Shown here: piece after piece, positions 3,917 to 7,865 of the stretch
Layout: each line of letters starts with the position of its first letter
How positions within the stretch are numbered: position 1 is the first letter of the stretch
Source: Methanobacteriota archaeon
GTDB taxonomy: Archaea; Hydrothermarchaeota; Hydrothermarchaeia; Hydrothermarchaeales; SZUA-236
DNA length: 11,063 bases
NCBI GenBank assembly: GCA_003230355.1
Contig: QIDD01000044.1
Span: 1-11,063, forward strand
Direction: 5' to 3'
Position numbers and translations under genes: made by a program
Notes under the pieces: model-generated
Seen by the model: only the letters and a program-made list of their open reading frames with translations
What the model was told of the DNA's origin: nothing
Databases searched by the model: none

Positions 3917-4062
3917 GCCGGGGTAACTCAGCCTGGTTAGAGTGCCACGCTCATAGGGTTTATTTTTCCAACCAAAAAAAAAGAGGAGAAATAGAAACAA
4001 AAGAGCACTCAAAATCAACCTGGGAAACGTGGAAGTCGCGGGTTCGGATCCCGTCCCCGGCA
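3917..4062 (+). tRNA. tRNA-Met (CAU), elongator, intron-containing
   Basis: The mature exons are 3917-3955 and 4027-4062. The acceptor stem is GCCGGGG/CCCCGGC (7 bp), followed by U8-A9, D stem ACTC/GAGT with loop AGCCTGGTTA, anticodon stem CCACG/CGTGG, loop C-T-CAT-A-A after splicing, variable AAGTC, T stem GCGGG/CCCGT with loop TTCGGAT, and discriminator A. No CCA is encoded. Anticodon CAU with a G1-C72 pair and a GCCGGGG acceptor fits elongator tRNA-Met. The archaeal initiator normally starts AGC, and tRNA-Ile2 has a different acceptor; I judge Ile2 unlikely but cannot exclude it. The intron follows position 37, the canonical site. All stems pair apart from one G-U in the T stem. Confidence 0.95.
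3956..4026 (+). other. tRNA-Met intron (71 nt) with canonical bulge-helix-bulge
   Basis: The central 4-bp helix is CTCA (3950-3953) with TGGG (4021-4024), including one U-G pair. On one side is the 3-nt bulge TAG (3954-3956), on the other AAA (4025-4027). The inner helix is GGTT (3957-3960) with AACC (4017-4020), and the outer helix is the anticodon stem. Cutting each bulge after its second base gives exactly 3955/3956 and 4026/4027. The intron body is A-rich and I see no ORF or snoRNA boxes in it. Confidence 0.93.
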
Positions 4063-4064
4063 TC

Positions 4065-4083
4065 TTTTTCTTATGCAAGAAAA
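4065..4083 (+). terminator. U-run and stem-loop just 3' of tRNA-Met
   Basis: The run TTTTT (4065-4069) begins 3 nt after the discriminator and opens a perfect 7-bp stem TTTTCTT (4066-4072)/AAGAAAA (4077-4083) with loop ATGC. The same stem follows tRNA-Asn. Archaeal termination needs mainly the U-run, so whether the hairpin has its own role is open. Confidence 0.55.
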
Positions 4084-4087
4084 ATAT

Positions 4088-4132
4088 GCATCAAAAAGAA
4101 CCCAAATTTCGCTATCACGAAATTCTCCAATG
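4088..4132 (+). repeat. tRNA-linked palindromic repeat, copy 1
   Basis: GCATCAAAAAGAACCC (4088-4103) is followed by a perfect 7-bp palindrome AATTTCG/CGAAATT with loop CTATCA, then CTCCAATG (4125-4132). The left 16-mer and right 8-mer are identical in copy 2, while the palindrome between them differs but stays paired. Confidence 0.8.
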
Positions 4133-4147
4133 GAGTGATATTGGTCG

Positions 4148-4162
4148 CTCGACACCGAAAAT
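4148..4162 (+). repeat. 15-bp block shared with tRNA-Asn flank (inverted copy at 7654-7668)
   Basis: CTCGACACCGAAAAT occurs here and, as its exact reverse complement, at 7654-7668. Relative to the neighbouring tRNA both copies have the same orientation, and both lie between two palindromic repeats. Confidence 0.8.
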
Positions 4163-4165
4163 GCC

Positions 4166-4211
4166 GCATCAAAAAGAACCCGAAATTTGCTCGTCGCAAA
4201 TTTCTCCAATG
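4166..4211 (+). repeat. tRNA-linked palindromic repeat, copy 2
   Basis: GCATCAAAAAGAACCC (4166-4181) is followed by a perfect 9-bp palindrome GAAATTTGC/GCAAATTTC with loop TCGTC, then TCCAATG. The copy begins 78 bp after copy 1. Confidence 0.8.
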
Positions 4212-4353
4212 ATTGTTCTATGATAAAACCAATCGAACGTTTCTGTTCGATTGCTGGGAGTAGAACTCACATGTATTAGTATTCACAACTACTAAGGTGT
4301 TTTAGTCGATTTTTCTAATTATAGCATGTTTTTTGAGGGGGCCATGAAAAAGG
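4212..4353. other. Non-coding stretch upstream of the haem-domain gene
   Basis: No coding sequence is supported here. It contains two inverted repeats (8 bp at 4231-4252; TTAGTA/TACTAA at 4276-4281 and 4290-4295) and T-rich DNA. The whole of 4063-4416 between tRNA-Met and the next gene appears non-coding. Confidence 0.6.
4231..4252. repeat. 8-bp inverted repeat, 5' of haem-domain gene
   Basis: AATCGAAC (4231-4238) and GTTCGATT (4245-4252) flank the 6-nt loop GTTTCT. It is about 100 bp upstream of the TATA box of the next gene. It may be the last member of the tRNA-flank hairpin series or a regulator site. Confidence 0.6.
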
Positions 4354-7538: not shown

Positions 7539-7592
7539 AAAACACTGGATTACACTAAATCGCTGGATGAGGAGTGATAGCAAGCGAGTGAA

Positions 7593-7614
7593 CCCATTGT
7601 CGAGCAATGTGGGG
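7593..7614. repeat. Palindrome CCCATTG/CAATG-T-GGGG
   Basis: CCCATTG (7593-7599) and CAATG (7605-7609) plus GGG (7611-7613) pair with one T bulge around loop TCGAG. It is the tRNA-distal member of the hairpin series 3' of tRNA-Asn. Confidence 0.55.
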
Positions 7615-7651
7615 AGAAATTTAAGTCCAGCTTAAATTTCGGGTTTTGGGG
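7611..7651 (-). repeat. tRNA-linked palindromic repeat, copy 4
   Basis: On the minus strand CCCCAAAACCC (7651-7641) is followed by a perfect 10-bp palindrome GAAATTTAAG/CTTAAATTTC with loop CTGGA, then TCCCC. It has the same design as copies 1-3 (left CCC, A/T-rich palindrome, right TCC), with more diverged flanks. Confidence 0.7.
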
Positions 7652-7653
7652 TA

Positions 7654-7668
7654 ATTTTCGGTGTCGAG
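7654..7668 (-). repeat. 15-bp block shared with tRNA-Met flank
   Basis: The minus strand reads CTCGACACCGAAAAT, identical to 4148-4162. It lies between copies 3 and 4, just as the other lies between copies 1 and 2. Confidence 0.8.
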
Positions 7669-7687
7669 AGATTAAAGAACATCCTAT

Positions 7688-7728
7688 GGAGAATTTTGCA
7701 CAAGCAAAATTTGGGTTCTTTTTGGCGC
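7688..7728 (-). repeat. tRNA-linked palindromic repeat, copy 3
   Basis: On the minus strand GCGCCAAAAAGAACCCA (7728-7712) precedes a perfect 8-bp palindrome AATTTTGC/GCAAAATT with loop TTGT, then CTCC. Twelve bases, CAAAAAGAACCC, are identical to copies 1 and 2, while the palindrome is different. Confidence 0.8.
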
Positions 7729-7730
7729 TC

Positions 7731-7761
7731 TAAAGCTCTGCTTTAAATTTCGTGACACGAA
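7731..7761. repeat. Two short palindromes between copy 3 and the tRNA-Asn trailer
   Basis: TAAAGC (7731-7736)/GCTTTA (7740-7745) has loop TCT. TTCGTG (7749-7754)/CACGAA (7756-7761) has a 1-nt centre. Between them lies AAATTTCGTG-like sequence recalling the core of copy 1, so this may be a decayed copy. Confidence 0.5.
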
Positions 7762-7765
7762 GTGG

Positions 7766-7785
7766 TTTTTCTTACAGAAGAAAAA
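7766..7785 (-). terminator. U-run and stem-loop just 3' of tRNA-Asn
   Basis: On the minus strand TTTTTCTT/AAGAAAAA form a perfect 8-bp stem with loop CTGT, starting 8 nt after the tRNA. The arms match those after tRNA-Met except for one extra pair, while the loop differs. Confidence 0.55.
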
Positions 7786-7792
7786 TGTGCAG

Positions 7793-7865
7793 CGCTGTCG
7801 GCGGGACTCGAACCTGCGACCACGTGGTTAACAGCCACGCGCTCTACCTACTGAGCTACGACAGC
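7793..7865 (-). tRNA. tRNA-Asn (GUU)
   Basis: A 73-nt tRNA without an intron. The acceptor is GCTGTCG/CGACAGC, then TA, D stem GCTC/GAGC, anticodon stem CGTGG/CCACG with loop CTGTTAA (anticodon GTT), variable TGGTC, T arm GCAGG-TTCGAGT-CCCGC and discriminator G. No CCA is encoded. The T stem has an A-C mismatch at 51-63. Every other stem is fully paired and the anticodon is unambiguous. Confidence 0.96.

Follow-up and report, generated by a model that had tools for sequence, protein, structure and literature searches.

Why do a tRNA-Met gene and a tRNA-Asn gene on opposite strands of one contig carry the same ordered set of short hairpins beyond their 3' ends? Both genes lie in a window of 11,063 nt (the whole stretch of DNA analysed), which is contig C44 of an archaeal MAG (G000; 1.27 Mb, 221 contigs, 80.9% complete). 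The TrpRS of this genome is 89% identical to that of its nearest named relative, Archaeon BMS3Abin16, which an excerpt of one published account assigns to Ca. Hydrothermarchaeota, subgroup MBGE-D (PMC6759336). The sister genome G001 is taken to be the Archaeon BMS3Abin16 MAG, in part because its contig C165 carries the same tRNA-Asn flank as that archaeon. Elsewhere in the window, the minus-strand ORFs 1-1188 and 1139-1780 overlap at 1139-1188 and read like a single frameshift-split protein. Between the tRNA-Met cassette and a creatininase gene lies an ORF with an ethylbenzene-dehydrogenase domain (PF09459; 4417-6351); the corresponding gap in BMS3Abin16 is ~144 bp long and holds no PF09459 ORF.

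The first cassette is anchored by an intron-bearing tRNA-Met (CAU) gene on the plus strand (3917..4062; Rfam RF00005, 47.7 bits). Its parts are called modules here; the letters are our own and the borders were drawn by eye. Reading away from the tRNA along the plus strand, the first is module A, a T-rich trailer hairpin of the form T1-loop-R1 (4065..4084, seen in the sequence and in a structural-model match at 4059-4128), with T1, TTTTTCTT, at 4065-4072 and R1, AAGAAAAA, at 4077-4084. A purine lead, R2 (AAAAAGAA, 4093..4100), follows; in the sequence, and in the rule tests described below, it is the parallel complement of T1 and the mirror of R1. R2 is joined to module B, which has the general form CC[CT]-hairpin-CTCC and here reads CCC-hairpin-CTCC (4101..4128; sequence and structural model). 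Then come module C (CTCGACACCGA, 4148..4158, found again in other flanks), a second lead with its module B (4171..4207; structural-model match 4148-4207) and module D (CAATCGAAC-GTTTCT-GTTCGATTG, 4230..4253), from the D-E family, which has 19 matches in G000. Folded as RNA, the Met flank is more stable than dinucleotide shuffles (z -3.5, with 0 of 200 shuffles as good).

The second cassette is anchored by tRNA-Asn (GTT) on the minus strand (7792..7865; ARAGORN and Rfam). Down from 7791 it has the order that a sequence-only reading of this DNA had described: a TTTTTCTT/AAGAAAAA stem, two short palindromes, CAAAAAGAACCC-palindrome-CTCC, then CTCGACACCGAAAAT, a second CCC-palindrome-CTCC unit and a last palindrome. 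In module terms, and always on the minus strand, module A lies at 7766..7785 (sequence, fold and a structural-model match at 7688-7791), with T1 TTTTTCTT at 7785-7778 and R1 AAGAAAAA at 7773-7766. Module G, the two short palindromes, separates R1 from R2 (7728..7765) and recurs at L040, L042, L050 and other loci. On the far side of module G lies R2 (AAAAAGAA, 7716..7723), again the parallel complement of T1, as the rule tests also find. Module B (CCC-hairpin-CTCC, 7688..7715; sequence and structural model), module C (CTCGACACCGA, 7658..7668), a second CCC-hairpin-CTCC module B (7613..7643; DNA match 7613-7724) and the final palindrome CATTG-CTCGA-CAATG (7595..7609; sequence and fold) complete the cassette. 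This flank, too, is more stable as RNA than dinucleotide shuffles (z -2.3, 4 of 200 as good). The two flanks had been said to share module order and orientation; an alignment agrees on both, except that the Met flank lacks module G. When the whole MAG is searched, they match each other at E = 2.1e-12, which excludes chance.

The wider inventory is larger than these two flanks suggest. Module G is optional and follows module A, module F is a form of module B with two inner hairpins, and module C is usually CTCGACACCGA. Module H reads TGTC...hairpin... with a final C, module D is CAATCGAA..TTCGATTG, and module E is a long hairpin that follows a T-run and terminates in AAAAAGGTGGA. Modules I and J are pieces similar to the middle of a tRNA. 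T-runs occur on both strands of module A and on the tRNA strand of D-E. Two-sided changes (covariation) are found at 8 of 10 predicted pairs. The module B unit list still holds a few wrong units (e.g., the L214 rows and L200 at 28). At L033, L212 and L144, E hairpins are nested within E hairpins, as if modules enter each other's loops.

Is this a feature of two tRNA genes only? A DNA search of G000 with one flank as the query gave 35 matches at E <= 10, and most of the strong ones lie directly 3' of other tRNA genes. This genome-wide recurrence does away with the notion of a two-copy feature and rules out a one-off local duplication, which the sequence-only reading had kept in view. A covariance model of A-B, built from 26 units, gave 45 matches in G000, 39 in G001 and 19 in G002 at E <= 1. 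At E <= 1e-3, G000 has 27 matches. Of these, 18 begin no farther than 10 nt from a tRNA 3' end and another four lie within 250 nt of a tRNA, a share that is biased upward because the training units were taken from tRNA flanks. The other five are not within 250 nt of any tRNA: one lies 1.2 kb away, behind a truncated tRNA-Arg, and for four no tRNA was found. In the D-E search of G000, with matches placed by eye, 10 of 19 have a listed tRNA no more than about 450 nt away; nine are not near one, and five of those nine are near a contig end. The ends of contigs C84, C128, C132, C167, C177 and C96 of G000 lie inside or close to cassettes, so the repeats probably break the assembly. Two tRNA-less cassette copies, L279 (G000 C99) and L291 (G001 C120), adjoin TTTGTCACCCTC, the other strand of which, GAGGGTGACAAATG, looks like a ribosome-binding site with an ORF start codon.

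A rule-based scan, which counts any of modules A, B, C, D and H in a tRNA 3' flank, found modules in 24 of 30 flanks in G000, 22 of 25 in G001 and 11 of 17 in G002. Other members of the order gave 11/24 (G005), 13/25 (G007), 4/16 (G008) and 3/13 (G011), and three genomes of the order are low (G003 2/14, G006 2/20, G013 0/8). Shuffles, which preserve base content only, scored 0 to 4 in 80 to 300. These counts cover the flanks left after removing duplicates, tRNAs not listed or not fetched, and flanks shorter than 60 nt (rule scan, second three-strand test and tRNA-end copies) or 100 nt (T-run count). Flanks used relative to tRNA matches were 30 of 32 known in G000, 25/35 in G001, 17/31 in G002, 14/41 in G003, 24/35 in G005, 20/47 in G006, 25/32 in G007, 16/30 in G008, 13/22 in G011 and 8/47 in G013.

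How far do the cassettes extend beyond these close relatives? At E <= 1e-3 the structural model matched 7 of 23 genomes of the class, in families f1, f4, f5, f6 and f7 of one order; it matched none of the 10 genomes of f2, and gave no match at that threshold in G006, which shares family f5 with G011. Among 150 relatives, at E <= 1e-4 and with stricter filters, the same seven genomes matched, all in this order. In the five genomes beyond G000 and G001 the cassettes after tRNAs are diverged and sparser, making five families in all. Seven of nine model matches in G005, G007, G008 and G011 touch a tRNA 3' end, and two (one in G005, one in G011) lie away from one. A first DNA search (4 of 61 genomes) had suggested restriction to one genus, which was dropped when the structural model reached four more families. 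One of those four genomes had just a lone weak DNA match and lies outside the order (G027:C2:33760-33785, E = 0.008); this match is probably chance. The proposal of a family of elements beside tRNA 3' ends thus gains support both genome-wide and order-wide, with the five G000 matches that are not tRNA-adjacent as exceptions.

What holds the modules together? T1 and R1 are reverse complements, and R2 is the parallel complement of T1. Examples of T1/R2 pairs are TTTTTCTT/AAAAAGAA, TTTCTTTTT/AAAGAAAAA, TTTTCT/AAAAGA, TTTTTCTTTT/AAAAAGAAAA and TTTCT/AAAGA. Three tests bear on this rule. First, the parallel complement is exact in 32 of 40 units and the reverse complement in 11 of 40; 20,000 shuffles reached at most 18. 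Second, 192 flanks contain 61 A hairpins within 40 nt, 35 of them with an asymmetric arm, and the parallel complement lies within 75 nt for 31 of these 35, as against 1 of 35 for the reverse (swap maximum, 26). Third, 35 of 37 TnCTm arms come with a purine run containing one G; of these 35, 30 agree in both run lengths (re-pairing swaps: mean 5.6, maximum 13), 34 in the first and 2 in the reversed order. Counting one entry per distinct type and genome, which controls in part for kinship among copies, gives 18 of 23 (maximum 9). Units with module G, where the spacers measure 42 to 49 nt, also obey the rule, as do those of G005, G008 and G011. At three orthologous pairs with unchanged modules (L034/L196, L037/L199 and L060/L285), all three strands changed together. 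The run-length rule is broken in 5 of 35 cases, and for the G002 leads CCCCC-TAAA it fits the A/T part alone.

A purine-motif triplex on the tRNA strand would require just such a parallel complement, and so, on the opposite strand, would a pyrimidine-motif triplex or H-DNA. A mirror-symmetric purine/pyrimidine tract kept by coupled change, one feature of a triplex or H-DNA element, is present in these units; in the D-E module, mirror symmetry judged by eye is not clean. Could the stems instead come from template switching in the course of replication, as palindromes that drift yet stay perfect in the absence of selection? They do vary in sequence and remain paired. However, template switching yields inverted rather than mirror repeats and so cannot make R2 track T1 in parallel, and we regard this origin as highly improbable. 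Another rival is a trailer RNA that toggles like an attenuator, with T1 pairing either with R1 or, in a shifted antiparallel register, with R2. When the Met flank is folded as RNA, UCUUUUU of T1 pairs in just this register with AAAAAGA of R2 in the best structure, which offers a two-strand alternative to the triplex. The best fold of the Asn flank, however, keeps the T1-R1 pairing, and a switch requires a match of the first T1 run only, yet both runs match in 30 of 35. Such a switch seems very unlikely.

The best reading of these patterns is that the cassettes are structured trailers or terminators that selection on a three-strand fold maintains and that recombination at tRNA 3' ends replaces over time. 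More fully, they would be old, lineage-specific, non-coding hairpin trailer modules at tRNA 3' ends, with a three-strand fold that ends or blocks transcription and with recombination spreading them; we put the probability of this at roughly 45%. Module A, a hairpin with T-runs on both strands, would join the lead R2 in a putative three-stranded fold. On the tRNA strand this would be a purine-motif triplex, and its equivalent on the opposite strand a pyrimidine-motif triplex or H-DNA. Together with hairpin B, this fold may end or block transcription at the tRNA 3' end, and the block would insulate the tRNA gene from its neighbour. Recombination using the tRNA 3' end, from T-arm to acceptor, and perhaps module C would spread and swap the cassettes and leave tandem units of trailer plus truncated tRNA 3' end. 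We infer the fold, the transcription role and the recombination route from what can be observed directly: position, recurrence, structure-preserving variation, the three-strand rule, the differing strings at orthologous tRNAs and the truncated tRNA-end copies. The suggestion that the cassette is a trailer RNA finds support for its structure in pair covariation and the three-strand rule; the RNA itself is a prediction.

Why would the cassettes act on transcription? The parallel complement and a T-run after many tRNAs suggest, as the likeliest job, that the cassettes stop or block transcription where the tRNA ends. Five consecutive T residues occur no more than 40 nt from the tRNA in 18 of 29 flanks of G000, in 11 of 25 of G001 and in 8 of 17 of G002; the controls gave 0/14, 5/20 and 1/8, the 5/20 coming from G006, a genome that lacks the cassette family. 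At 300-340 nt in G000 the count is 4. At three G000 tRNA genes with no cassette, a gene on the same strand starts within about 40 nt downstream; these genes presumably encode rpoH, rpoK and L18e, judging by how they read, and a terminator would be harmful there. Two observations count against this line of argument: tRNA-Ser at L060 keeps its cassette despite a close downstream S13-like gene, and H-first flanks have no immediate T-run. The T-run counts and the T-runs on both strands of module A and on the tRNA strand of D-E would also suit bidirectional terminators of an ordinary kind, in which T-rich hairpins separate a tRNA gene from its neighbour, are homogenised by gene conversion and involve no third strand. 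That simpler account leaves the parallel-complement rule, modules C and H and the tRNA 3'-end copies unexplained, and the H-first flanks tell against it as well; we consider it decidedly unlikely.

How are the cassettes exchanged? At the tRNA-Asn locus of G000 and G001, the tRNA is identical and the flanking DNA 85-88% identical, and the cassettes are different. Across 18 orthologous tRNAs of these genomes, compared by eye, the module string differs at 13 and is unchanged at 5 (Ile, one Ser, Leu-TAA up to the contig limit, and Lys and initiator Met, both of which have no cassette). For example, the stretch from the end of tRNA-Met to module C holds A-B in G000 and a piece of H in G001, with identical sequence after C. 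tRNA-Thr(TGT) has one additional A-B unit in G001, and both G001 hairpins at tRNA-Leu(GAG) are absent in G000. A search for empty sites gave no clean one, tRNA-Leu(GAG) in G000 being the nearest. These swapped modules at orthologous tRNAs support the exchange between tRNA flanks that had been proposed from the sequence as gene conversion; the process would be recombination.

Truncated copies of the 3' end of the upstream tRNA itself, 17 to 28 nt long and exact, occur in 7 of 192 flanks from five genomes: L054 (G000), L205 (G001), L215 (G002), L331 and L351 (G005), and L309 and L378 (G008). In five of the seven, a sequence beginning like module A comes next, degenerate in two of those five. Some ends come from another tRNA: L195 (G001) has a tRNA-Cys 3' end behind tRNA-Thr, and L049 (G000) a tRNA-Thr-like end behind tRNA-Cys. 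Further tRNA ends beyond the seven-flank count occur at L006, L049, L294, L295 and L321; three candidates (L311, L352 and L353) were dropped, being the next complete tRNA. At L006, a 290-aa ORF (460-1332) separates tRNA-Arg(TCG) from a truncated tRNA-Arg and a new cassette; in G001 the cassette directly follows tRNA-Arg, with no gap. Module C resembles the T-loop consensus and is placed where a tRNA end would precede the next unit; these points are no more than a lead.

Several of these features are what non-autonomous integrative elements would leave behind. An integrase, resident or borne by a helper, would insert small circles at the T-arm or acceptor of the tRNA, and the modules would be arms of attachment sites with no job for the host. 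The truncated own 3' ends after seven tRNAs in five genomes, the foreign tRNA ends, the ORF between the two tRNA-Arg copies at L006 and the differing module strings of orthologous tRNAs all fit. Tyrosine integrases are scarce, however. The tyrosine integrase model PF00589 has one match in G000, none in G001 and none in G002, and a resident tyrosine integrase was accordingly rejected as the mover. Two scans of viral contigs gave two and one contigs, none of them a cassette, the matches having neither a tRNA nor neighbouring modules; a viral source was rejected too. Moreover, persistence over five families with compensated sequence remodelling suggests selection. Overall, integrative elements with no host function strike us as rather unlikely.

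Do the cassettes belong to a known family? Searches of the window and 20 loci against Rfam returned tRNA alone at the gathering cut-off, and a search of two stretches at E <= 10 gave nothing convincing; a known Rfam RNA was rejected on both results. Archaeal integrative elements target the tRNA 3' end and produce direct repeats of that end, a feature shared here (7 of 192 flanks with their own end and one with that of another tRNA); unlike such tyrosine-integrase elements, most cassettes have no genes, and PF00589 is absent in two of the three genomes searched. In the rtT repeats of the E. coli tyrT operon, tandem trailer units are each closed by a repeat of the 3' end of the tRNA itself, a feature shared by seven flanks here (at least 17 nt, exact); the Rfam searches above gave no match to the rtT model. 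The rtT repeats are found in one operon of one bacterium, whereas the cassettes follow many tRNAs in seven genomes and carry hairpins and modules. Nested palindromic repeats of organelles and bacteria (double-hairpin elements, REP) are short, with varying and sometimes nested stems; the cassettes differ in the strict placement of most copies 3' of a tRNA and in the three-strand rule. Triplex-forming RNAs and H-DNA elements have mirror-symmetric purine/pyrimidine tracts, but we know of none at tRNA 3' ends and of none coupled likewise to a hairpin and lead. The nearest described feature is in M. kandleri, where, in an excerpt of the source, roughly half of the tRNA genes have a palindrome, CGTTA(N)9TAACG, ~10 bp beyond their 3' end that is proposed to mark tRNA 3' maturation (PMC5217627). 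Many tRNA genes here likewise have a palindrome at about that distance. As that excerpt presents it, the M. kandleri palindrome is a single short motif in one species, with no modules, parallel rule or tRNA-end copies; the flanks here have other sequences and several modules in place of its single-unit consensus.

A literature search of one open library found no description of such a layout, in line with the sequence-only reading. Each compared family fails at least one defining feature or lacks the parallel rule, and by that comparison, made against this one library, the cassettes are new. Their swapping between genes and their three-strand rule point to a hitherto undescribed type of non-coding element associated with tRNA ends. 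A more ambitious claim, that they form a new class of tRNA-anchored element with a three-stranded core, three-way covariation in at least five archaeal families and movement via T-arm recombination, is possible, and we hold it only tentatively; on that claim, they would be the first tRNA trailer known to require a triple helix.

What would the cassettes mean for these little-known, uncultured archaea? To our knowledge, the terminators of archaeal tRNA genes are poorly known. If the preferred reading of selected trailers is true, the cassettes would be a lineage-specific, genome-wide way of finishing and insulating archaeal tRNA genes, as well as an exchange route for tRNA 3' flanks. Three strands changing in step would be rare evidence for a triple helix selected in living cells, and the family offers dozens of natural variants for testing it. 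If the cassettes are selfish instead, they would stand out among the passengers of tRNA genes as unusually small and regular.
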